From positions 62,001 through 126,000 of the forward strand of contig CANFHC010000009.1 of the NCBI GenBank assembly GCA_947446575.1: a stretch of DNA of 64,000 bases. Direction: 5' to 3'. The notes under the pieces were generated by a model, which made no database searches, was not told where the DNA came from, and worked only from the letters and a program-made list of their open reading frames with translations. A program made the translations under genes and the position numbers. Source of the DNA: Bacteriovoracaceae bacterium (lineage in GTDB: Bacteria > Bdellovibrionota > Bacteriovoracia > Bacteriovoracales > Bacteriovoracaceae). Positions 43,867 through 62,478 of the stretch are shown one piece after another. The first letter of the stretch is position 1, and every line of letters begins with the position of its first letter.

Positions 43867-45792
43867 ATGGAAGTTAAAGATTATTCTCAAAAATTGGATC
43901 AGGCACGCGATAAGTATCGTCAGGCGCAGGAAGACTTGCGTTCAACTTATGATAAAAATGCTGAAAGTACCAAAACTACTTTTGATAATAAAGCGGATAA
44001 ACTTTCAAAAAATTATGACAATCAAAAGACCAAACTAGAAGAACAAAATCTTGTTAATAATCAAATGTATTCTGATAAAACCAAAGAGGTGATTGCTGAT
44101 CGTCAGGAACGCTTCCGCAATGATATCAAAAAGAATACAGAAAAATTTGATTTAGACCGCAACGAAATGAAGTCAGATTTTAATGATAAGCTCACAAACT
44201 TAAGTGATTCATATAATAAAAGTACTCAAGAAAATAATCGTTTTCATGATCAGGCCATGAAGACTATGAGTGATAGATACGGTAAATCTAATACAAATTA
44301 TAAAAATGGTTTTGATAAACAAATTGAATCAATGGATTCAAAATCTAAACAGACCTTCTTAGATCAAAAGAATGAAACGCACCAATCTCAGTTAATTCAA
44401 GACAAAAACAACCAAGAAAATCTGGAAAATTTAAGAGCCAGCAATCAAGAGCAAAAATTTAAGGAAGTTTCAAGGTTAAGAAACGATAACCAAAATTTGC
44501 GGACTAGTTTTACTCAGGAAAGAGATGCTATGCATGATGAGCAGCAGGCTCGAATTGATGATATTTTAAAATCTAAAAATAAAGAGAGTGAAGAAGGGCA
44601 AAAGAATTTTGCTGATCTTCAACAAAATATTCGCGTAAAAAACTTGAACGACGAAGAAAAAGTTAAACAGGCCCATATGGGTGAGTCTAAGGCCCTCGAA
44701 AAGAAATTTAATGAAGATCTTCGCAATATGCAACACATGGCCAACCAGAAAATTAAGGGTGGAAACGAAGTTTCTGCATTAAAGGATGAAAATAAACAAT
44801 TAATTTCTTCTTATGAAAATAGACTGCAAGGTGCTCGTGACGAGGCTAAAAAAGATAGCGAAATCAGCACGGAAAAAGAAGAAAAAATCGACGATAATTA
44901 TCGCGAAAAGTTAAAAACTTTAAAACTCAGCAACGTTGAAGAGTTAGATAAAAAAGACTCGGATATGTCTGCTCAAAGCAATAGAAAATTACAAGAATTT
45001 AAAGATAAAAATAGTACAATCGTTGATCGATATAAAAACGATGCAACAAAAACTAAAATTGAAAATGAAGAAAAATTAACTAAGGCAGATGGAAAATCCA
45101 AAACTCAATTAAAAGATCAAAGAGTTGAGTTTGGCAAATATATCAACAATGTTAATGATAAAAAAATGGAAGAAATATCATCCATCAAAAATGAGTTTTC
45201 AAAAGATAAAACTAATTTTATCGAAAAAACCAGAAGAGATTTTAGTGATGAAAAGAATCAGTTAAAGGACGTATTTAATCAAAAACTAACTGTCAAAGAT
45301 GATATGTATGAAAAAAAATTATCTGAAATGGAAAAACAAACTAATAAAATTATAGAAAATTATGAAACTCGCATGAACCAACTAGCTCGTAAGTCAGAAA
45401 AAGAAGTTGAAGTCATGAAAAATACTGAAGACACTAGAAGAATAAAGGAAAACCAAGCGATCGCTATAGCTTTTGATAACCAAGAACATGACCACCAATT
45501 AGAGATAGGCAATATCAGAAGTAAGTATGAAAATATCATTGGTAAAGACCGCTCTTTAAATGAGCAACAAACAAATCGTATTGTTCAAAAATATGAAGAT
45601 CAACTAGAGCGCGAGCGAAGTGATCATCTAAAAGATCTATCAATAAAGCTAGGTGAATCTCAGGCTCAGTTTGAAAGACTATTTAAGTCCAGCGAACTAG
45701 AGAAGGAAACCTTACGAAATCAATACGAGCAGCGCATGGAAAACATGAAATCAGCTGCAATGGCCCAACAAGGTAATACAAAAAAAGTATAG
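43867..45792 (+). CDS. large cytoplasmic coiled-coil protein
   Basis: 641 residues with no Pro, Cys or Trp and very high Lys, Glu, Asp, Asn and Gln, predicted almost entirely alpha-helical coiled coil. There is no signal peptide or membrane segment. Phrases recur with variation (YDKNAEST, YDNQKTK, YNKSTQEN, YKNGFDKQ), suggesting growth by internal duplication of roughly helical blocks, although exact repeat length was not determined. Such proteins form filaments or scaffolds; Bdellovibrio has the cytoplasmic coiled-coil protein Ccp, but homology cannot be judged here. The gene has its own leader and lies alone between the DsbA-like gene and pyruvate kinase. Confidence 0.75.
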   Translation: MEVKDYSQKLDQARDKYRQAQEDLRSTYDKNAESTKTTFDNKADKLSKNYDNQKTKLEEQNLVNNQMYSDKTKEVIADRQERFRNDIKKNTEKFDLDRNEMKSDFNDKLTNLSDSYNKSTQENNRFHDQAMKTMSDRYGKSNTNYKNGFDKQIESMDSKSKQTFLDQKNETHQSQLIQDKNNQENLENLRASNQEQKFKEVSRLRNDNQNLRTSFTQERDAMHDEQQARIDDILKSKNKESEEGQKNFADLQQNIRVKNLNDEEKVKQAHMGESKALEKKFNEDLRNMQHMANQKIKGGNEVSALKDENKQLISSYENRLQGARDEAKKDSEISTEKEEKIDDNYREKLKTLKLSNVEELDKKDSDMSAQSNRKLQEFKDKNSTIVDRYKNDATKTKIENEEKLTKADGKSKTQLKDQRVEFGKYINNVNDKKMEEISSIKNEFSKDKTNFIEKTRRDFSDEKNQLKDVFNQKLTVKDDMYEKKLSEMEKQTNKIIENYETRMNQLARKSEKEVEVMKNTEDTRRIKENQAIAIAFDNQEHDHQLEIGNIRSKYENIIGKDRSLNEQQTNRIVQKYEDQLERERSDHLKDLSIKLGESQAQFERLFKSSELEKETLRNQYEQRMENMKSAAMAQQGNTKKV

Positions 45793-45847: not shown

Positions 45848-47530
45848 ATGAGACGAGCTAAAATTGTGGCCACAATCGGGCCTTCATCATCATCAAAAGA
45901 AATGTTAACTAAGTTAATCGAGAACGGCGTAAATGTCTGCAGAATTAATATGAGTCACGGGACTTACGAAGCCCATCAAGCGGTCATTAAAAATATTCGC
46001 GAAGCAAGTAGAGAGTCTGGTTATGAAGTTGCAATCTTGGCTGATTTACAAGGTCCAAAAATTAGAGTTGATAAACTTCTTGTGCCACTCATTTTAGAAA
46101 GTGGATCAGAGTGGGTAATCGGTTCTAGTAAACTACAAGATAATTACCCAGAGTACAAAGAAAAATATATTCCAACAATTTATGAAAATCTTGTAGCCGA
46201 TTGCCATGATGGTGCTCGTATTCTTTTTGATGATGGATTAATTATTGCTGAAGCAATAGCAAAAGATCGGGATGTTTATAAAATCAAAGTTACTATTGGT
46301 GGAACGCTTAAATCAAATAAAGGAATTAATCTTCCAGACTGCGATGTCTCTGCACCAGCTTTTACGGAAAAAGACAGAGAAGATTTAATGTTTGCCTTAA
46401 AAGAAGGTGCCGATTATGTGGCGCTTTCATTTGTAAGAAAAAAAGAAGACATCCTCACAGTTAAACAACTACTGCATTCACTCAAGGTAAATATTCCCAT
46501 TATTTCTAAAATTGAAAAGCCTCAAGCAGTAGATAATATCGATGAAATTCTTGCTGTAACGGATATGATTATGGTGGCCCGTGGGGACATGGGAGTTGAA
46601 GTTGGAAATCATTTAGTGCCAGCGATTCAAAAAAAATTAATTAATAAGTGTAATGCACTAGGAATTCCCGTTATTACAGCTACTCAAATGCTAGAGAGCA
46701 TGACGGATAATCCAACACCAACTCGAGCTGAAGCTTCGGACGTTGCAAATGCTATTTGGGATGGAACAGACGCCGTTATGCTTTCAGGAGAAACAGCTTC
46801 GGGAAAATATCCCATAGAAACTATTAGCATGATGGACAAAATTGTTCGTGAAGCTGAAAAAACTCCAAAAGAACGACCATTTTTGCGCAATCAAGATTTG
46901 TCTTCAGTTACAGCTTCAATCATGGTGGCAGCATCAATGATATCAGAAAAAATTGGAGCAAAAAGAATTGTTTCAGTTACAGAATCAGGATCATCTTGTT
47001 TGCGTATTACTCAGTTTCGTCCAAGTGTTCCTGTGCTTGGAATTACCAACTCACTTAAGGTTGCAAGACGAATGTGTTTATATTGGGGAGTCAGTCCATT
47101 TATCGTGACTGAGCAAAAAGAAGAAAATCCTGAATTTATGAAAAATGTTCTTAAGGAAGTTAAAGAAAGATTGTTTTTAAAGAATGGCGATAAACTTGTT
47201 CTAACTCGTGGTGATGGGAAATTTTTTTCACAGGGAAGTTCTAACTCAATTAAAGTAGAAGTTATTCGAGATAAGCCTAAAGTTCAAGGTGGATCACAAG
47301 GGCTAGAAGAGGCGAGTGATGATACAAAAAAGATTTTACTTGATACGAATGTTTGCGCTTCATGCCAGGCTTGTGTACAAGTTTGTCCCCACGATATCTG
47401 GGCCGTCACAAAAGATGAAAAGAAAAATACATATATCGCAGCTGCTCATATTTCAAAATGTACAATGGATATGGCCTGTGTAGAGAGTTGCCCCATGGGT
47501 GCAATAGAAATAATTCCGACAACATTTTAA
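45848..47530 (+). CDS. pyk: pyruvate kinase fused to a C-terminal ferredoxin domain
   Basis: 560 residues. Residues 1-475 are a complete pyruvate kinase: KIVATIGPSS, INMSHG, LADLQGPKIR, ISKIEKPQA, the signature MVARGDMGVEV, TQMLESM and a C-domain with a normal VTESGSS. It makes pyruvate and ATP from PEP and ADP. After a short linker, residues about 500-560 are a bacterial-type 2[4Fe-4S] ferredoxin: Cys503, 506, 509 and 513 (CASCQACVQVCP), then Cys538, Asp541, Cys544 and Cys548 (CTMDMACVESCP), with Asp in place of the second Cys. The fusion is within one uninterrupted frame. An AGGAAA site precedes the ATG. queG, an iron-sulfur enzyme, follows one base after the stop. Confidence 0.93.
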   Translation: MRRAKIVATIGPSSSSKEMLTKLIENGVNVCRINMSHGTYEAHQAVIKNIREASRESGYEVAILADLQGPKIRVDKLLVPLILESGSEWVIGSSKLQDNYPEYKEKYIPTIYENLVADCHDGARILFDDGLIIAEAIAKDRDVYKIKVTIGGTLKSNKGINLPDCDVSAPAFTEKDREDLMFALKEGADYVALSFVRKKEDILTVKQLLHSLKVNIPIISKIEKPQAVDNIDEILAVTDMIMVARGDMGVEVGNHLVPAIQKKLINKCNALGIPVITATQMLESMTDNPTPTRAEASDVANAIWDGTDAVMLSGETASGKYPIETISMMDKIVREAEKTPKERPFLRNQDLSSVTASIMVAASMISEKIGAKRIVSVTESGSSCLRITQFRPSVPVLGITNSLKVARRMCLYWGVSPFIVTEQKEENPEFMKNVLKEVKERLFLKNGDKLVLTRGDGKFFSQGSSNSIKVEVIRDKPKVQGGSQGLEEASDDTKKILLDTNVCASCQACVQVCPHDIWAVTKDEKKNTYIAAAHISKCTMDMACVESCPMGAIEIIPTTF

Positions 47531-47531
47531 T

Positions 47532-48545
47532 ATGAAAATTTTCGATCCTGCTGATTTAGAGAGATGGGGAGTGGAAGATTTCGGATTTACTTCCGAATCC
47601 AAACCAGCTTCCATTGATCGGTACAATGAATGGGTGGCATCTGATCTGCATTTGCCCCTAACCTATTTAGAAGGTGAGCGGCGCTTAAAAAGACAAAGTA
47701 TAAAGGCCCACTGGCCAGAATTTTCTTCTGCGGTCGTTTTTCTTTTCTCCTATCATACAACTCATCAAGAATTACAAAACCTTTATAAATCTCATCCCGA
47801 TTGGAATGGATTAAAACTGGCTTCCTATACACTAGGATTTGAAGGAGCTGATTATCACGAGGTGATTAAAGCTCGTCTAATCGAAATAGGTGGGCAACTA
47901 CAAGCTAAGCATCCAGGACTCGAGTATAAGCTAACATTGGATACTCATCCTGTTTTAGAGCGTGACCTTGCTATGCGAGCAGGGTTAGGTTGGTTCGGTA
48001 AAAATTCGATGCTTATCAACCGTGAAAGCGGAAGTTTTTTTATTATCGGCTCATTACTTTTAAACCAAGAATTAAAAAGTTATGAGAAAAAGATTGAGAT
48101 TGATCACTGTGGACAATGCACTCGTTGCATCGATGCCTGTCCAACAGAGGCCATTGATGCTAAGACGAGAACGATAATTGCCAAAGATTGCATCAGTACA
48201 TTTACAATTGAACAATTTAAGCTTGATACTCTTGCGTCTGGAAAAATGACGTTAAAAGAAGGGACAATTTTTGGTTGTGATATTTGCCAAGACGTTTGCC
48301 CATGGAATAAGAGAGTAGATCGTCTAAATCCTACTAATAATAAAAGCTTCGTATTTGATGAACAAAATAAGATAATTGATTTTTTTCTTCTAAAAGATAA
48401 AAATTCTATCGCTCAAGATTTAGAATCTATGAGCGAAGGAGAATTTAAAAGAAGATTTGGCAAAACATCATTTTTGAGAAGTGGAAAGCGTGGACTTCTA
48501 AAAAATATTCGATTTTATCTTAAAGAATTAAATATTCTTTCTTAG
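47532..48545 (+). CDS. queG: epoxyqueuosine reductase
   Basis: 337 residues. Cobalamin-dependent iron-sulfur enzyme for the last step of queuosine synthesis in tRNA. Family segments include LTLDTHPVLERDLAMRAGLG and WFGKNSMLI. The first cluster motif is HCGQCTRCIDACPTEAI. The second uses Cys in KDCISTFTIEQ, GCDICQDVCPWNKR. It begins one base after pyruvate kinase, suggesting a joint transcript. The 3' end overlaps the convergent ABC permease gene by 18 bp. With queC at 26.4 kb it confirms queuosine synthesis. Confidence 0.96.
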   Translation: MKIFDPADLERWGVEDFGFTSESKPASIDRYNEWVASDLHLPLTYLEGERRLKRQSIKAHWPEFSSAVVFLFSYHTTHQELQNLYKSHPDWNGLKLASYTLGFEGADYHEVIKARLIEIGGQLQAKHPGLEYKLTLDTHPVLERDLAMRAGLGWFGKNSMLINRESGSFFIIGSLLLNQELKSYEKKIEIDHCGQCTRCIDACPTEAIDAKTRTIIAKDCISTFTIEQFKLDTLASGKMTLKEGTIFGCDICQDVCPWNKRVDRLNPTNNKSFVFDEQNKIIDFFLLKDKNSIAQDLESMSEGEFKRRFGKTSFLRSGKRGLLKNIRFYLKELNILS

Positions 48546-49778
48546 TGCATCCACGATATTCATATAGGCAGCTCTTCTCGCTGGTATATAAGTGGCAATA
48601 ACAGCGGTGATAATTGCGAGCGCACTGGCATAAAAAACTGAGGAAAATAAAAAATTAATATGCAAAGTAAATGGAACTGATGCACCTGGCATTTCAGTTA
48701 CAATTTTTACTGCATGAATTGTCTGGATAATTAACCACGATCCTATTGATCCTAAGAAAGTTCCAATTATTGTTAAAATTAAACTCTCTAAAACAAATTG
48801 ACCAATGATATCGGCCCTTGCTTCGCCAAACGAGCGAAGAGTACCAATTTCACCAGTGCGTTCTACCACCGTCATACTTACAGCGTTTAAGATTCCTAAA
48901 AACATTAAAGCAAGTAGAATACCTTCAATCAAACGATTTTGAACTCCATAAAATTTTTCACACTGTCTAAATAAGACGGCAAGATCTCTCCAGCTTCGTG
49001 CTTTTAAAAGTGTTTTTCCCGCCACTAATTCATTATTTATTTTCTTCTCATTTGCTTCGGCCAATGGAAGTTTGGCAAATTTAAATACAGCGATATCAAT
49101 GTTTGGTGTATCTAAAATGGTCTGTGTGATCGGAAGTGGAAGATAAATCACTTGAGCATCAATTTCATCGATACCCGCTGAAAAAATCCCTGAAACAGTA
49201 ATGTCCATAGCGTTCATTACTCCATCAACTGTATTTGTTAATATTGTAATATTGTCTCCAGGCTTAACATTCATTTGTTTAGCAAGAAGTTGTCCAATCA
49301 TTCCTTCTTTTGCATTATTGTCGGTGAAAAATTGTCCTGCCATAATGCGCATGCTTTTTGTGAAATTTGGCTCTCCAACTATATCCACACCAATAACTTT
49401 CCCTCCTATTGAGAGATCGCCATTACTAACCAATCCAAAAAAGCTTAATCGTCCGCTGACTTTAATTACCTCAGGGTGTAGAGAGGTAATATTTTTTAAA
49501 TCGTCGATGTGAAACATCCGATCTTTTCGACTTTCTTTTCCAGGACTCCAATATTTTTCTTTTGCAATTTGCATATTCCCATATTGGTTTTCAGCTGCAA
49601 TATGCTTTAGGGCCTGTAAAACAAAGTCTGATAAACCATGAAATAAAATAATGGAACAGACAGCTCCTCCAATCATACCAATCGATAAAAGACTTCTTAG
49701 GCGGTGGCGAGTAATACTTCTTAAAGCAATTCTAAAACGCATACGAGAAAACATTTTTTTGAAAAAAGCTAAATTCAT
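48528..49778 (-). CDS. FtsX/LolE-like ABC permease
   Basis: 416 residues with four transmembrane helices: one near residues 30-55, then a large periplasmic domain (about 60-275), then three near the C-terminus, the MacB/LolC/LolE layout. ALRSITRHRLRSLLS at the N-terminus and RTGEIGTLRSFGEARADI then IPARRAAYMNIVDALRK at the C-terminus are family segments. It overlaps the upstream ATPase gene by four bases (ATGA). Last gene of an operon LolA-like, barrel, ATPase, permease. Such transporters extract lipoproteins or drive other periplasmic transport rather than pumping across the inner membrane. As a single permease it probably acts as a homodimer. Confidence 0.85.
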   Translation of the reverse strand: MNLAFFKKMFSRMRFRIALRSITRHRLRSLLSIGMIGGAVCSIILFHGLSDFVLQALKHIAAENQYGNMQIAKEKYWSPGKESRKDRMFHIDDLKNITSLHPEVIKVSGRLSFFGLVSNGDLSIGGKVIGVDIVGEPNFTKSMRIMAGQFFTDNNAKEGMIGQLLAKQMNVKPGDNITILTNTVDGVMNAMDITVSGIFSAGIDEIDAQVIYLPLPITQTILDTPNIDIAVFKFAKLPLAEANEKKINNELVAGKTLLKARSWRDLAVLFRQCEKFYGVQNRLIEGILLALMFLGILNAVSMTVVERTGEIGTLRSFGEARADIIGQFVLESLILTIIGTFLGSIGSWLIIQTIHAVKIVTEMPGASVPFTLHINFLFSSVFYASALAIITAVIATYIPARRAAYMNIVDALRKNI

Positions 49779-50464
49779 TTGATCACCTCACCCGTAATTT
49801 GTCCGTCAGTAATTTTTATTTGTCTGTGGGTTCTAGAGATGAGGTCATTATCGTGACTACATAGCATGACGGTAACTTTCAAATCTTCTTGAAGTCTTAC
49901 GAGTAATTCAAAAACTTCTTCCGAGGTCTTTGTATCTAAATTAGCAGTTGGTTCATCGGCTAATATCAGAGTAGGGTCTTTAACAATAGCACGAGCAAAT
50001 GCCACTCGTTGCCTTTGACCACCACTTAATTGAGATGGGCGGTGATGAGTAAAGTTTTCAAGGCCTACTTTTTTAAGAGCAAGATGAGCGCGCTGGATTC
50101 TTTCTTCTTCACTTAAGTTTAAAATCATTAATGGGTATTCAACATTTTCGAGTGCGCTTAATAACGGCAATAAATTAAATGTTTGAAAAATAAAACCAAT
50201 TTCTCTAGCTCGAATAAGCGAGAGTTCGTTGTCAGTAATATTTTTCGTATTAATGTTTTTAATAAAAAGATCACCTCGAGTCGGAGGATCGATTAGTCCA
50301 GCTACATTTAAAAGAGTCGTCTTTCCGCTACCCGATTTTCCAGATAGACCAATAAATTCCCCTTTCTTTATTTTTAAATTAATATTTTGAAGAGCGGTAA
50401 AATCTATTCCTTCAGAAGAGAATACTTTGTCAATGTTCACAAAGTTCAGAATTGTATCGTTCAT
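49775..50464 (-). CDS. LolD/MacB-type ABC ATPase
   Basis: 229 residues, one nucleotide-binding domain. Walker A GLSGKSGSGKTTLLN, Q-loop GFIFQTFNLLPLL, signature LSGGQRQRVAFARA, Walker B LILADEPTANLD, and H-loop CSHDNDL are all canonical. The FNLLP segment is typical of LolD/MacB/FtsE ATPases acting with four-helix permeases. It is placed seven bases after the barrel gene and overlaps the permease start by four, so ATPase and permease are made together. Confidence 0.93.
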   Translation of the reverse strand: MNDTILNFVNIDKVFSSEGIDFTALQNINLKIKKGEFIGLSGKSGSGKTTLLNVAGLIDPPTRGDLFIKNINTKNITDNELSLIRAREIGFIFQTFNLLPLLSALENVEYPLMILNLSEEERIQRAHLALKKVGLENFTHHRPSQLSGGQRQRVAFARAIVKDPTLILADEPTANLDTKTSEEVFELLVRLQEDLKVTVMLCSHDNDLISRTHRQIKITDGQITGEVIK

Positions 50465-50471
50465 AGACCAC

Positions 50472-51755
50472 CTAGAGTTGGAAGTAATTTTTTAAAGAGC
50501 AGAACACACTGCTGATATTTTTAAATTTATTTAAGTTGCTTGTTTCATCACCAAAGTAAAATTGACCACCAAGTTTAAGATCAGTCGTACTATTAATAGG
50601 CCAATTGAGGTATGTTTGAATCGAATGTCCAGTGTGTTCAAATTCATGGGTATAAGAAAATTCCCAAGATTTATCACTACCAAAATCTTTATTTATTTTA
50701 GCAATCATATATTCTTCATTTTTTTCTCTAAATGCGTTTGGAAGAATATCTTTTAAACTTGATTTCGCAAAGACGAGTACTCCCGAATAGGTGTCGTAAG
50801 TAGGAGAGTCAATGCTCGCGACGGCGTTTAATGCGTCTGTCGTAAAGTTTTTAAGTTGGGAGTTTTCAATATAGTTAATAATTTTATCTTTTGTTATTAC
50901 AATATCTGTTCGTAAAACAAAATCTGAGATTGTTTTTGCCAACGACAATCCCCCCATTTTAATGTGAGAGTGTACTTCTTTTAAATTAACTGCTGCAAGA
51001 GTCGCAGAATTTAAAACATAATGAGCATCGCGATCCAAATAAGAAAAACCAAAAAGTGATAAATCCAAACCTGAATAACTTGCCGAAAATTTTCCACCCA
51101 TCTCAGTATGTTTGAACATTATCGGCGTTTGCGCTTTTTCAACATTTAAGATTAATCCTGAATTAAAAAGATTTCCAGCATAAACCTCAATGGGAAGTGT
51201 CTTGGAAAAACGAGGTTCTGGAGAATATAGAAATTGCAATGATCCTGATAAATCACCACTCGAAAAAAATGTCTTACCATTAAAAAGCATGAGAGGAAGT
51301 CTCGCATCACTTGCATCACTGTAAAGAGTTTCTCTTAGATCTTTTGGACTAATTACATCGGCATAATTGAAGCCGAATGCTTCTCCCCAAACGACTTCTT
51401 GGTATCCAAGTTGAATAACCCAATTATCACTTTTATATTTGAGGTAGTTTTCACCCAAATAAGTTTCGAAAGAATCTTTTTTGGGAAGTGTACTGGTTCC
51501 AGTGTTTAAATCAGCATTGATTGAATTACTAGTCCAGCGCAATTGATTGAGAGCGTAGAAGCTCGATCCAAAATCAGTAGTCTGTTCAAACTGAGCTCGA
51601 GCTTGTTGTCCATAATTTCTCGATTTTTCTGTCGTGTAAGAAGAGAGTCTTGCAAACATATAGCCGCGGGTTTTGTATTGCCAGTTTTCAGCATACAAAT
51701 TAGCAGAGGATAATAATCCCAAAAGAATGACTGAAGTAAATTTAGATTGAATCAA
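50472..51755 (-). CDS. outer-membrane beta-barrel protein of a LolA/ABC operon
   Basis: 427 residues: a signal peptide (LLGLLSSANLYA) and a mature part of alternating strands rich in Tyr, Phe, Ser, ending KNYFQL. The conserved-looking QLGYQEVVWGEAFGFNYADV followed by ISPKDLRE resembles DUF1302-type barrels found beside LolA-like proteins. The start overlaps the LolA-like gene by four bases and the end is seven bases before the ATPase gene. It is likely the outer-membrane end of a lipid or lipoprotein trafficking route; that role is inference. Confidence 0.7.
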   Translation of the reverse strand: MIQSKFTSVILLGLLSSANLYAENWQYKTRGYMFARLSSYTTEKSRNYGQQARAQFEQTTDFGSSFYALNQLRWTSNSINADLNTGTSTLPKKDSFETYLGENYLKYKSDNWVIQLGYQEVVWGEAFGFNYADVISPKDLRETLYSDASDARLPLMLFNGKTFFSSGDLSGSLQFLYSPEPRFSKTLPIEVYAGNLFNSGLILNVEKAQTPIMFKHTEMGGKFSASYSGLDLSLFGFSYLDRDAHYVLNSATLAAVNLKEVHSHIKMGGLSLAKTISDFVLRTDIVITKDKIINYIENSQLKNFTTDALNAVASIDSPTYDTYSGVLVFAKSSLKDILPNAFREKNEEYMIAKINKDFGSDKSWEFSYTHEFEHTGHSIQTYLNWPINSTTDLKLGGQFYFGDETSNLNKFKNISSVFCSLKNYFQL

Positions 51756-52471
51756 AATTCTAACCTTTCTTTATTAAATAAACTGTCGCTGAATTTTTCA
51801 GGTTTATGATCAGAAAAAATAAGAGTAGATGACTTGTCTTTTTGTAAATAATCTTGAATCATCATTTTAGTAGCGCGACTCATTCCTTGGATGGGTTTAA
51901 AATCAGAAAACTTTGCTCTCTTAAGTGGTTTTCCAGATATTGCAAAAAATGTCGCTTCAAGTGGGCTGAAATCTTTTTTTGAAACAACGTATTCAATTTT
52001 TCCGTAAGTAACTTTATTATTTTTTGCTTTTAAGGCCAAGTGGTATGCGTCTGCATTTTCTTTTTTATCAAGATCGATAAAAGTGGCTTCGTAGTCTTCT
52101 GCATAATTTGTTCTAGCAATATCTCCATTGGAGACTTGTCCGGTTAATTTTTGCTCTAGTGAAATTCGAAGAGCCTTTTTAATATTTGGAGTAAAAAGCC
52201 AAATATCATAATCTTTCATTAAAAGTTTTCTTCCACGTGCACGTTCCGGCTCTGTTTGTTCTGTCATCGTATTATTCACATCTCTAAAATAAACATGGTA
52301 AATTTCTTTTTTACTATCTTGATCTGTAACAGTTACATTAAAAGAGTGAGAGATATTTCCTAAACCTCGCTTTAAGTCTGCTTTTTTTACGATTTCGTTG
52401 GGATTCATTTCGGCGAGCGAAACTAATGGAAAGCTTAGAAATACACAAAGGAAGAAAGTACACGTTTTCAT
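51752..52471 (-). CDS. LolA-like periplasmic lipid/lipoprotein carrier
   Basis: 239 residues with a signal peptide (FFLCVFLSFPLVSLA). The body matches the outer-membrane lipoprotein-sorting (LolA-like) family: ARGRKLLMKDYDIWLFTPNI followed by KKALRISLEQKLTG, then YVVSKKDFSPLEATFF and FSDFKPIQGMSRATKM. These half-barrel proteins carry acyl chains through the periplasm. First gene of the four-gene operon with a barrel, an ATPase and a LolE-like permease. It is not LolA itself: this subfamily usually accompanies RND or ABC transporters of unknown lipid cargo. Confidence 0.85.
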   Translation of the reverse strand: MKTCTFFLCVFLSFPLVSLAEMNPNEIVKKADLKRGLGNISHSFNVTVTDQDSKKEIYHVYFRDVNNTMTEQTEPERARGRKLLMKDYDIWLFTPNIKKALRISLEQKLTGQVSNGDIARTNYAEDYEATFIDLDKKENADAYHLALKAKNNKVTYGKIEYVVSKKDFSPLEATFFAISGKPLKRAKFSDFKPIQGMSRATKMMIQDYLQKDKSSTLIFSDHKPEKFSDSLFNKERLEF

Positions 52472-52586: not shown

Positions 52587-53108
52587 TTATTTATTATAGT
52601 CCACCTGGCAATTATTGGGATCAAAAGGCATTAAGATTGAGTGATGAAAGTCTTCTCCTTCAATGCCCCAACGAATTTTAAAAATGTCATAAGAATAACT
52701 TAAAGCAGATTCTTTAGTCATGGATGTAATCAATGTGTAAGATTCTAATTTTGATTTTTCTGGTTGAATAAACGTTGCGGCCCCATCACAACTCATCAGC
52801 AGCGGTGTTTCTTCATTAAATTTACACTTTTCGACAGGCCAAGAAACTATTGCCTCATGATCAATACTTGAGAGTTCCTTTTCGGCAATTTTTATAAAAG
52901 GCATTGAATTTTTTGTGACTAATCCTTCGTAGAAGGGAAAATCAGCGGACCCAAGAGAGTTGCTATACCTCATAAAAATTTTGTCCTGCGAAGTATAAAT
53001 GGCCACAGCAACTCTTCCACCATTACCAATACATTGCGCTCGATAGCTTAGGGCAAATACTGGCGTTGATAATACGAGTAATAAAAAAAATAAAAGTGCC
53101 ATTCTCAT
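52587..53108 (-). CDS. small secreted protein, unknown function
   Basis: 173 residues from the ATG at 53108, which has a GGAGA site; an in-frame TTG 12 bases upstream overlaps that site. A signal peptide (LLFFLLLVLSTPVFA) is followed by a strand-rich mature part with four Cys (AQCIGNGG, EKCKFN, MSCDGA, NNCQVD) that could make two disulfides. It lies alone between the LolA operon and dgkA. No family recognised. Confidence 0.6.
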   Translation of the reverse strand: MRMALLFFLLLVLSTPVFALSYRAQCIGNGGRVAVAIYTSQDKIFMRYSNSLGSADFPFYEGLVTKNSMPFIKIAEKELSSIDHEAIVSWPVEKCKFNEETPLLMSCDGAATFIQPEKSKLESYTLITSMTKESALSYSYDIFKIRWGIEGEDFHHSILMPFDPNNCQVDYNK

Positions 53109-53221
53109 GAAAATCTCCAATGAAACGAATCCAACTTAGAATTTCACAGTGAAAGCTTAATCGTCAAATTTATTTCAGAATGTTTTTTACACTCTAGAGA
53201 AAAGTTTGTTAAAGTTAGAAT

Positions 53222-60960: not shown

Positions 60961-62478
60961 ATGGAAAATCTTGAAGTAGATAAAATAAAATTAATAAAAA
61001 AAGACGAAATTTTTGGTTCATTTTATATTGGCGAGATGGAAGTTGCAATTAATGTTAGAGCAATACATGAAGTTGTTAATCTTCCAGAAAAAATAATTAA
61101 AATGCCTCTTGCCCCAGAATATCTTTTAGGGGTGTTTAATTTACGAGGTCTCATCATTCCCATAATTAATCTAAAACTTCTGCTAAAACTTGAGGATTTT
61201 GCAATTTCAGCAAATCAAAAAATTGCAATAATTGACCATGAAGGAGCAAAAGTCGGACTTATATTCGACTCTACAAGTGAAATTATTAGAGCGAATCAAG
61301 AAGTTTTAAATGAATTTAAATATCCTGGGGAAAATGGACATAATATAATTTCGGGGGCAATTAAATTAGACTCAGGGAATAGAATATTGCAGATAATAGA
61401 TCCATTTGCATTATTATCTATCGAAAATATCCCGCAAATTATTGCTCAACAAAGTAAAAATAATAAAAATGGTAAATTTTCATTACATCAATTAGGTAAT
61501 CGAAAAAAATGTATCTCATTTTCAATCAATGATATTTTAATGGGCTTTGAAATTTCAGGCATTCACGAAATAATAAAAGTTCCAGAAATTCATCAGTCTC
61601 CAATTCAAAATGATCTTTGCCTAGGTGTGGTTAACTTAAGAGGACAAACTGTTCCCGTAATAGACTTATCTCTTTTGTTGGGAGCATCTCGATCGCAAGA
61701 TATTACCGGAGAGGAAAAACGAATCATTGTTTTAAAAATTGAAAAAGAATTGTTTGGGCTTCTCGTTGAATCAGTTGAGAGTATAAACACTTATGACGTA
61801 GATGATGTCATGGCAATTCCTTTGTTAAGTAAAACTCGCTCTCAAATGTTTCTTGGCTGCATTTCTATTGAAGGGATGGGAGATATTATTTTATTAGATT
61901 ACAATGAAGTTCTTTCAAATAATGAGATCGGAGAAATTACTCAAGGCCACAGTAAATTCTATAACAGCAATTCTCAATTAGAATCACAACTATCTAAAAA
62001 TAAATTAAATCGTCAAGCTTATATCTCATTTAAATTGGAACATTTATTTGGTGTTTCGATTAAAGATATTTGTGAAATTATCAATTATTCAGATGAAATT
62101 GTATCTGCTCCTGGTATGCCTTCTTTTGTAAAAGGAGTTTTAAACCTCCGTGGAAAATTGCTTACAGTTATCGATACTAGACAGCTCTATGCAATGGGAG
62201 ATTCCAAACCAATCGATGATAAAACAAAAATTTTAATTTTCAATAGTGGAGAAGAGCGTTTTGGACTAATCGTTGATTCGGTAGAAAGCATTATTACAGT
62301 CGATGAAGATAAAAAAATGAAAGTTCCCAGCTTAATGGTACAAAGAGTTCAAGATAAATTTGCCAATGATATTAAGGAAATTATCACGTTCAAGCAGGCA
62401 GAGGAAAAAGATGGAGTCTTAGTTATATTAAATATGGAGCCTGTAACTTCGAGAATAAAAAATTCTATAGCGGCTTAA
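60961..62478 (+). CDS. three tandem CheW domains in one protein
   Basis: 505 residues made of three CheW domains: about 15-155, 181-317 and 351-500. Each has the core NLRG turn (residues 60, 225 and 395) and a following hydrophobic strand (IIPIINLKLLL, TVPVIDLSLLL, LLTVIDTRQLY). There is no kinase or receiver domain. A single CheW joins receptor to CheA, so a triple unit could bridge several array partners. GGAATTG lies at the ribosome-site position. Last gene of locus 2; 144 bp follow before the next gene. Confidence 0.88.
   Translation: MENLEVDKIKLIKKDEIFGSFYIGEMEVAINVRAIHEVVNLPEKIIKMPLAPEYLLGVFNLRGLIIPIINLKLLLKLEDFAISANQKIAIIDHEGAKVGLIFDSTSEIIRANQEVLNEFKYPGENGHNIISGAIKLDSGNRILQIIDPFALLSIENIPQIIAQQSKNNKNGKFSLHQLGNRKKCISFSINDILMGFEISGIHEIIKVPEIHQSPIQNDLCLGVVNLRGQTVPVIDLSLLLGASRSQDITGEEKRIIVLKIEKELFGLLVESVESINTYDVDDVMAIPLLSKTRSQMFLGCISIEGMGDIILLDYNEVLSNNEIGEITQGHSKFYNSNSQLESQLSKNKLNRQAYISFKLEHLFGVSIKDICEIINYSDEIVSAPGMPSFVKGVLNLRGKLLTVIDTRQLYAMGDSKPIDDKTKILIFNSGEERFGLIVDSVESIITVDEDKKMKVPSLMVQRVQDKFANDIKEIITFKQAEEKDGVLVILNMEPVTSRIKNSIAA

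Follow-up and report, generated by a model that had tools for sequence, protein, structure and literature searches.

Do four tightly packed genes on a contig of a Bacteriovoracaceae bacterium (Bdellovibrionota) form a single transport route through the cell envelope and, if so, what would it carry and in which direction? The genes lie in a stretch of 64,000 nucleotides (the window; positions 62,001 to 126,000 of contig CANFHC010000009.1, assembly GCA_947446575.1), where a first-pass annotation had proposed a dedicated lipid or lipoprotein route. With the set conserved as one unit, such a route is still the best reading. We consider it probable, if well short of certain, that the operon is a dedicated exporter, taking an amphiphilic molecule with an acyl chain from the inner membrane to the outer one, and best read as the ATP-binding cassette (ABC) counterpart of AmeABCD and of the aryl-polyene exporter. 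The four open reading frames (ORFs) run along the minus strand from 52471 to 48528:

51752..52471, minus strand: lolA-like gene, LolA_like periplasmic carrier (239 amino acids (aa), ATG start, PF17131; signal peptide recognised by eye)
50472..51755, minus strand: outer-membrane beta-barrel, DUF1302-related (427 aa, TTG start; AlphaFold2 (AF2) model and family profile)
49775..50464, minus strand: LolD-like ABC ATPase (229 aa; PF00005, TIGR02211, motifs in the sequence)
48528..49778, minus strand: LolE/FtsX-like (type VII) permease (416 aa; four transmembrane helices and a periplasmic domain of ~200 aa)

As annotated, the genes overlap or lie within 7 bp of one another: the carrier and barrel ORFs share 4 bp, 7 bp separate the barrel from the ATPase, and the ATPase and permease again share 4 bp. 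The 3' end of the permease gene reaches 18 bp into a convergent queG-like gene.

Conservation of the set

Within the genus, the barrel was found in 12 of the 13 other genomes (G001 is without it), in every case with a LolA_like gene beside it. The order carrier, barrel, ATPase, permease is kept in ten of these twelve, counting one set with two permeases (L060) and one whose permease runs off the contig (L015); the other two are cut by a contig end. Outside the genus the barrel occurs in 4 of 21 genomes of the family and in 3 of 22 genomes from other families of the phylum. A wider contig scan returned 20 loci, 12 of them on contigs already covered by the genus and phylum search, with titles such as Bacteriovorax, Bacteriovoracaceae, Bdellovibrionales and similar metagenome-assembled genomes (MAGs). 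The carrier adjoins the barrel in all 20, and the ATPase and permease are present in 19, sometimes on the other strand, the twentieth locus being a contig of 3.6 kb. Chance adjacency of four genes is ruled out by this conservation in the genus and the contig scan. The first-pass annotation had staked its proposal on the barrel keeping this company in other genomes; the neighbourhood search shows the set recurring, and its co-occurrence in genus and phylum bears out the view of one conserved unit covering inner membrane, periplasm and outer membrane.

On contig C8 of this genome (L053 8129-13310) lies a second, diverged set, composed of a LolA_like gene, two FtsX permeases, an ATPase and a barrel, which is itself conserved in the genus (L071-L075, L142, L145). 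Directly beyond the second set in L053 lies a LolCE-like pair of permease and ATPase.

ATPase and permease

The ATPase matches PF00005 (ABC_tran; 2.2e-32), and its translation shows intact motifs: Walker A GKSGSGKTT, Q-loop, LSGGQ, Walker B LILADE and H-loop SHD. The permease matches FtsX (PF02687; 1.2e-17), and its AF2 model (predicted local distance difference test, pLDDT, 84) places transmembrane helices at 26-66, 268-306, 321-357 and 378-404. By its permease as well as its ATPase, the pair is a type VII (MacB/LolE/FtsX) ABC transporter. The best match of the predicted permease fold is LolE (9xro_E; Z 30.0, root-mean-square deviation (rmsd) 4.9, 370 residues aligned), with MacB at Z 22.0 (rmsd 6.2-6.5, 344-364 aligned); the permease family profile likewise finds LolE and LolF (4e-27 to 3e-24). 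As to a MacAB-TolC arrangement, Pfam revealed no MacA adaptor or TolC in the four ORFs and two neighbours, a search that did not extend to the rest of the genome.

How close, then, is the pair to LolCDE? Against the NCBIfam models, the ATPase scores 224.7 bits for LolD (TIGR02211, cut-off 308) and the permease 91.9 bits for LolCE (TIGR02212, cut-off 362). Since neither cut-off is reached, we speak of LolD-like and LolE-like proteins rather than of LolD and LolE. The best of the genome's nine LolCE-like permease matches belongs to another permease and attains only 145 bits, so that the TIGR02212 cut-off may be too strict in this phylum. Like LolCDE-LolA-LolB, the operon combines a type VII permease, its fold closest to that of LolE, with an ATPase and a LolA-fold carrier; it differs in these scores, in a carrier of PF17131, in not keeping the Pad residues of LolC and in having a barrel in the operon. 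A canonical Lol system is ruled out by the LolD and LolCE scores together with a carrier that belongs to PF17131 and not to PF03548, with the reservation that no permease of the genome reaches the LolCE cut-off.

The closeness to LolE and LolF in both sequence and fold lends some appeal to a second, specialised lipoprotein route, in which the ABC unit would release a class of lipoproteins to the carrier and the barrel would aid their delivery to the surface (Lol plus translocon), and the name given to PF17131, 'outer membrane lipoprotein-sorting protein', points the same way. We nevertheless judge it unlikely, given the unreached LolCE and LolD cut-offs, the absent Pad residues, an operon in which no lipoprotein gene was recognised, and relatives that are linked to acyl-lipid synthesis.

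Overlong FtsX permeases of 874, 663 and 695 aa (L139, L147 and L153, respectively), perhaps fused or duplicated subunits, were seen in ABC-type sets.

The carrier and its two kinds of motor

PF17131 is the only Pfam family that the carrier matches above cut-off (E 5.3e-40; 137.5 bits, cut-off 30), and PF03548 (LolA) gives no match. Compared with the Protein Data Bank (PDB), a profile of 16 carrier homologues finds 3buu (NE2245), an uncharacterised protein of the LolA superfamily, at E 1e-67 over 19-238, the next entry following at 8e-14. A separate general LolA (PF03548, 60 bits) is encoded elsewhere in the genome, on contig C5. Since archaeal control genomes also give LolA_like matches, proteins of PF17131 are not necessarily tied to this type of outer membrane.

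According to the first-pass annotation, a LolA-like carrier and a barrel normally accompany a resistance-nodulation-division (RND) pump, for which the ABC unit would here be a substitute. Seventy PF17131 matches were collected from 57 related genomes and the neighbourhoods of 68 obtained (weak matches in G038 and G056 were left out); 67 carriers were classified by the motor within five genes, the carrier of L156 being left out as unrecognised by the profiles. An FtsX permease accompanies 37 of the 67 and an RND pump 16; 14 have neither and none has both. Among the 14, two loci (L067, L069) have ATPase and permease farther off on the other strand and two (L007, L070) are contig ends. The barrel stands directly beside the carrier in 47 of the 67, while the set-B loci carry it at the far end of the operon. 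No RND pump was found within five genes of the window's carrier. On a tree of the carriers (83 rows), the motor label needs two changes between ABC and RND; a single branch (Shimodaira-Hasegawa-like approximate likelihood ratio test, SH-aLRT, 98) contains the 16 RND-linked carriers, together with nine that have no motor nearby and just one that is ABC-linked. With only two changes, the ABC form appears as an old, stable line. The proposed association with RND pumps thus has a true core, in that 16 carriers have such a partner and the barrels of the RND-linked and motor-less loci are related to that of the window, but in this phylum the ABC unit is the commoner motor and the split too old for it to be a local stand-in.

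MMPL/RND pumps with a LolA_like domain fused at the C-terminus (L084 7067-10198, L085 7542-10679, L086 6833-9772) are evidence that motor and carrier work together; the fusion was recognised by Pfam in L084 and L086 and by carrier and RND matches in L085.

The barrel

By itself the barrel of the window has no Pfam match, nor does it match PF06980 (DUF1302) at E 0.01. Eleven of 20 aligned relatives do match PF06980 (best 2e-14), so that the earlier label 'DUF1302-like' holds for the family and not for the window's own protein. The AF2 model (pLDDT 81) predicts a porin-type barrel of ~18 strands, which resembles several single-chain porin-like barrels about equally (MOMP and the OccK family at Z ~22, AlgE at Z 20-21; rmsd 3.4-5). 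Omp85-type barrels are not among the 50 fold matches listed, which says nothing against Omp85, and the barrel profile finds no PDB sequence at E 5.

Within the phylum, the window's barrel is homologous to barrels of the RND-linked carrier branch (alignment A3; hhalign 98.3%, E 1.3e-14), of which L078 and L082 have an RND pump within five genes and L077, L080 and L066 do not. The barrels of the second set (alignment A2) show a moderate match to the window's family (92%; 57% with a smaller profile) and none to the A3 barrels. That the barrel, a putative acceptor of the cargo, is an unrelated porin beside an ABC operon is unlikely given its constant co-occurrence with the other genes.

The kinship of the barrels also bears on a different use of such a cassette, namely a tolerance or efflux device that would clear toxic hydrophobic compounds from the inner membrane. 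This has been proposed for AmeABCD, whose DUF1302 barrel and LolA-family protein protect from apolar monoterpenes (PMC6394551), and the phylum's RND-linked barrels are homologous to that of the window. The carriers of the two motors, on the other hand, have been separate since the old split, and the ABC form is repeatedly embedded in synthesis clusters (below), which favours an exported product; a role in tolerance therefore seems to us improbable.

Sets beyond the phylum

A tblastn search of a plasmid collection with the window's carrier gave 28 records, one of them a 4.9-Mb 'plasmid' that is evidently a chromosome. Twelve of these regions were opened, the other 16 comprising seven from Aliiroseovarius, a second copy of the Escherichia coli G8 plasmid, and records from Vibrio, Plesiomonas, Burkholderia, Persicobacter and Klebsiella. 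ATPase and FtsX permease(s) directly adjoin the LolA_like gene in all 12, and in ten an ORF of 388-495 aa occupies the barrel's place, either beside the carrier or three genes on (L120). The window-family barrel profile matches L120 (3e-21), L122 (4e-9) and L125, a Vibrio protein (1e-5). Barrels from Enterobacter, Rahnella, the E. coli chromosome, Aliiroseovarius and Paraburkholderia (L121, L123, L126, L127, L129) reach 95.7% in profile-profile comparison, while those of Vibrio and Plesiomonas match the window's family weakly by profile (16.6%) and score 65% against alignment A6. In the motor census the barrel label of L121, L123-L127, L129 and L130 is circular, the profiles having been built from the same proteins; the kinship of these barrels to that of the window is drawn from the profile comparisons and the hidden Markov model (HMM) match.

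The permease tells the same story. On a tree of 70 rows, from which five permeases were left out by length, that of the window falls in a 32-row branch (SH-aLRT 98) whose rows all come from such sets and which includes all nine Pseudomonadota sets on the tree. LolC and LolE of E. coli, the genome's other FtsX permeases (the best LolCE-like one included) and the second-set permeases lie outside. The earlier suggestion of 'prey-directed' lipids is not sustained, as the same lineage of the set is found in E. coli, Enterobacter, Rahnella, Vibrio and others; the set is broader in distribution, and less a speciality of predators, than was first thought.

Bacteriovorax is a predator and the organism's kin are Bacteriovorax MAGs, which might suggest that the system works in reverse, as an uptake route by which lipids or fatty acids, such as those of lysed prey, would pass from the outer membrane to the inner one. 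In Pseudomonas putida, growth on Tween20 requires DUF1302 and DUF1329 proteins together with an RND pump, which could mean uptake (PMC10866462). We hold this direction to be very improbable: for the type VII unit YbbAP, extraction out of the inner membrane has been proposed (PMC12646458), the set is linked to synthesis genes, and it occurs in non-predators.

Clues to the cargo

Outside the MAGs of the phylum, the surroundings of ten sets were read, and six of these lie in or beside genes of fatty-acid or polyketide type. The set on the E. coli G8 plasmid is accompanied by a short-chain dehydrogenase/reductase (SDR), an acyl carrier protein (ACP), FabZ, a ketosynthase (KS), a PfkB-type kinase, an N-acyl amino acid synthase with a FeeM domain and an enoyl-CoA hydratase; this cluster is rare (2 of 5,426 E. 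coli genomes). A chromosomal form, at the tRNA-Ser by ycdU, carries a holo-ACP synthase, SDR, FabZ, ACP, an aminomethyltransferase, two KSs and a malonyltransferase, and was found in 375 of the 5,426 genomes (~7%; in 369 with 80% or more of the query covered), O157:H7 EDL933 and O55:H7 included. The Enterobacter bugandensis and Rahnella sets have genes of the same type. Near the Paraburkholderia set are an acyltransferase, multidomain genes and a phosphopantetheinyl transferase, and near that of Aliiroseovarius KSs, an ACP and an AMP-binding protein. The chromosomal island may be O-island 47 of O157:H7. In the excerpts of PMC3893438, both OI-47 and fatty-acid genes in O-islands are mentioned, without being joined to each other.

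In E. coli NZ_CP062824.1 (L164 1-18088), two-partner-secretion genes of filamentous haemagglutinin (FHA) type directly precede the fatty-acid-type cluster with its exporter, and the same order recurs in Enterobacter (L131); lipid and adhesin may be functionally linked.

A proposed route and its weighing

In the export route that we favour, the FtsX/LolE-like permease and LolD-like ATPase would use mechanotransmission to lift the cargo out of the inner membrane, from its outer leaflet, a step for which LolCDE is a precedent. With one permease gene, the permease is probably a homodimer. The LolA_like carrier would then shield the cargo across the periplasm and hand it to the DUF1302-type barrel, which may insert it into, or pass it through, the outer membrane. 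The direction would be outward, and the cargo a lipid rather than a lipoprotein.

Several observations weigh against this account. Firstly, the hairpin that the permease keeps at the Hook site of LolC (strands 176-182 and 188-200) is clade-conserved but six residues shorter than in LolC, and the Pad residues R163, Q181 and R182 are not conserved; for both reasons, the proposed docking of carrier and permease is conjectural. Secondly, four of the ten sets outside the phylum's MAGs, namely those of a Bdellovibrio plasmid, Plesiomonas and two Vibrio (L120, L124, L125, L130), have no fatty-acid or polyketide-type genes in view, and the Plesiomonas and Vibrio sets carry a histidine kinase and a LytTR regulator instead. 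Thirdly, no homologue of the fatty acid synthase/polyketide synthase (FAS/PKS)-type genes of the E. coli cluster lies near any of the Bdellovibrionota copies searched, save one SDR (L070), and the cargo assignment is therefore carried over from relatives. Finally, the carrier and permease trees are quick searches without bootstraps and with long branches (seven on the carrier tree).

The nearest published set is that of Borrelia, BBJ23-29 (PMC13078400), in which an outer-membrane barrel and a LolA-like carrier are clustered with one ATPase and a single FtsX/LolE-like permease, and for which the same extraction and hand-over are proposed. It shares the ABC and carrier logic but has a barrel of the Omp85 family, where ours is DUF1302-related, and adds two tetratricopeptide repeat (TPR) proteins and BBJ29; neither neighbour here (the queG-like gene and a 177-aa protein, below) was recognised as TPR. 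AmeABCD of Castellaniella defragrans, the deletion of which lowers monoterpene tolerance, similarly unites a DUF1302 barrel, a periplasmic protein of the LolA superfamily and an inner-membrane motor in one cassette (PMC6394551); its motor is an RND pump (HAE3) in place of the ATPase and FtsX permease found here, its carrier is a DUF1329 protein, and it has an extra periplasmic protein, AmeC. The aryl-polyene genes apeL, apeM and apeN likewise place a dedicated LolA-like carrier (ApeL) in a fatty-acid-type cluster whose product resides in the outer membrane (PMC8253772), but with an RND motor (ApeM), a LolB-like acceptor (ApeN) and, in the excerpts of that paper, no DUF1302 barrel listed. Carriers dedicated to a lipid product have been proposed for aryl-polyene and flexirubin clusters (PMC8253772, PMC11885536), and a further precedent for the extraction step is YbbAP, which suggests an ability of type VII ABC units to draw out hydrophobic compounds, although the partner in YbbAP-TesA is a hydrolase and not a carrier with a barrel (PMC12646458). 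In the open-access (PMC) literature we recognised no description of a set of ABC unit, LolA_like carrier and DUF1302 barrel.

Tentatively, and with somewhat more doubt than belief, we propose a broader generalisation: ATPase, FtsX permease, LolA_like carrier and DUF1302-type barrel may constitute one old class of outer-membrane lipid exporters, the ABC twin of the RND-LolA-DUF1302 systems, common to Bdellovibrionota and Pseudomonadota and repeatedly recruited to surface acyl lipids made by adjacent synthases, among them the lipid of the E. coli chromosomal island present in ~7% of complete genomes. The barrel would then be a lipid-delivering end point and not a porin. DUF1302 barrels and PF17131 carriers are widespread, and what they carry is not settled. 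Being compact (four genes), present in tractable bacteria and often beside genes making the probable cargo, the ABC-driven set renders the cargo and direction of such carriers and barrels testable. If true, our proposal would give the type VII ABC transporters a branch devoted to lipid export.

Neighbouring genes

A possible fifth member of the operon lies upstream of lolA, across a gap of 115 bp:

52587..53120, minus strand: 177-aa exported protein, no family assigned

Homologues occupy the same position, with gaps of ~96-116 bp, in L057, L059, L061 and L062, and thus in at least five genomes of the genus including that of the window; none was found near the set in L055, L056, L058 or L060, and the protein has no convincing Pfam match.

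The neighbouring dgkA and PAP2 phosphatase genes, both for lipid enzymes, were considered as a clue to the cargo and rejected, as they lie on the other strand and only one further genome of the genus (L056) has the two of them near the set; in L061, dgkA is near the set without the phosphatase. A queG-like gene, a pyruvate kinase and a coiled-coil gene are conserved near the set in congeners and look like ordinary synteny. The pyruvate kinase of the window (45848-47530) ends in a ferredoxin-like domain of the dicluster [4Fe-4S] type (Pfam PK, PK_C and Fer4), and its homologues adjoin the set in several congeners; a link to redox chemistry would be unusual for such an enzyme. Across the genus it is adjoined by a highly charged, likely coiled-coil protein of 641 aa (43867-45792 in the window).

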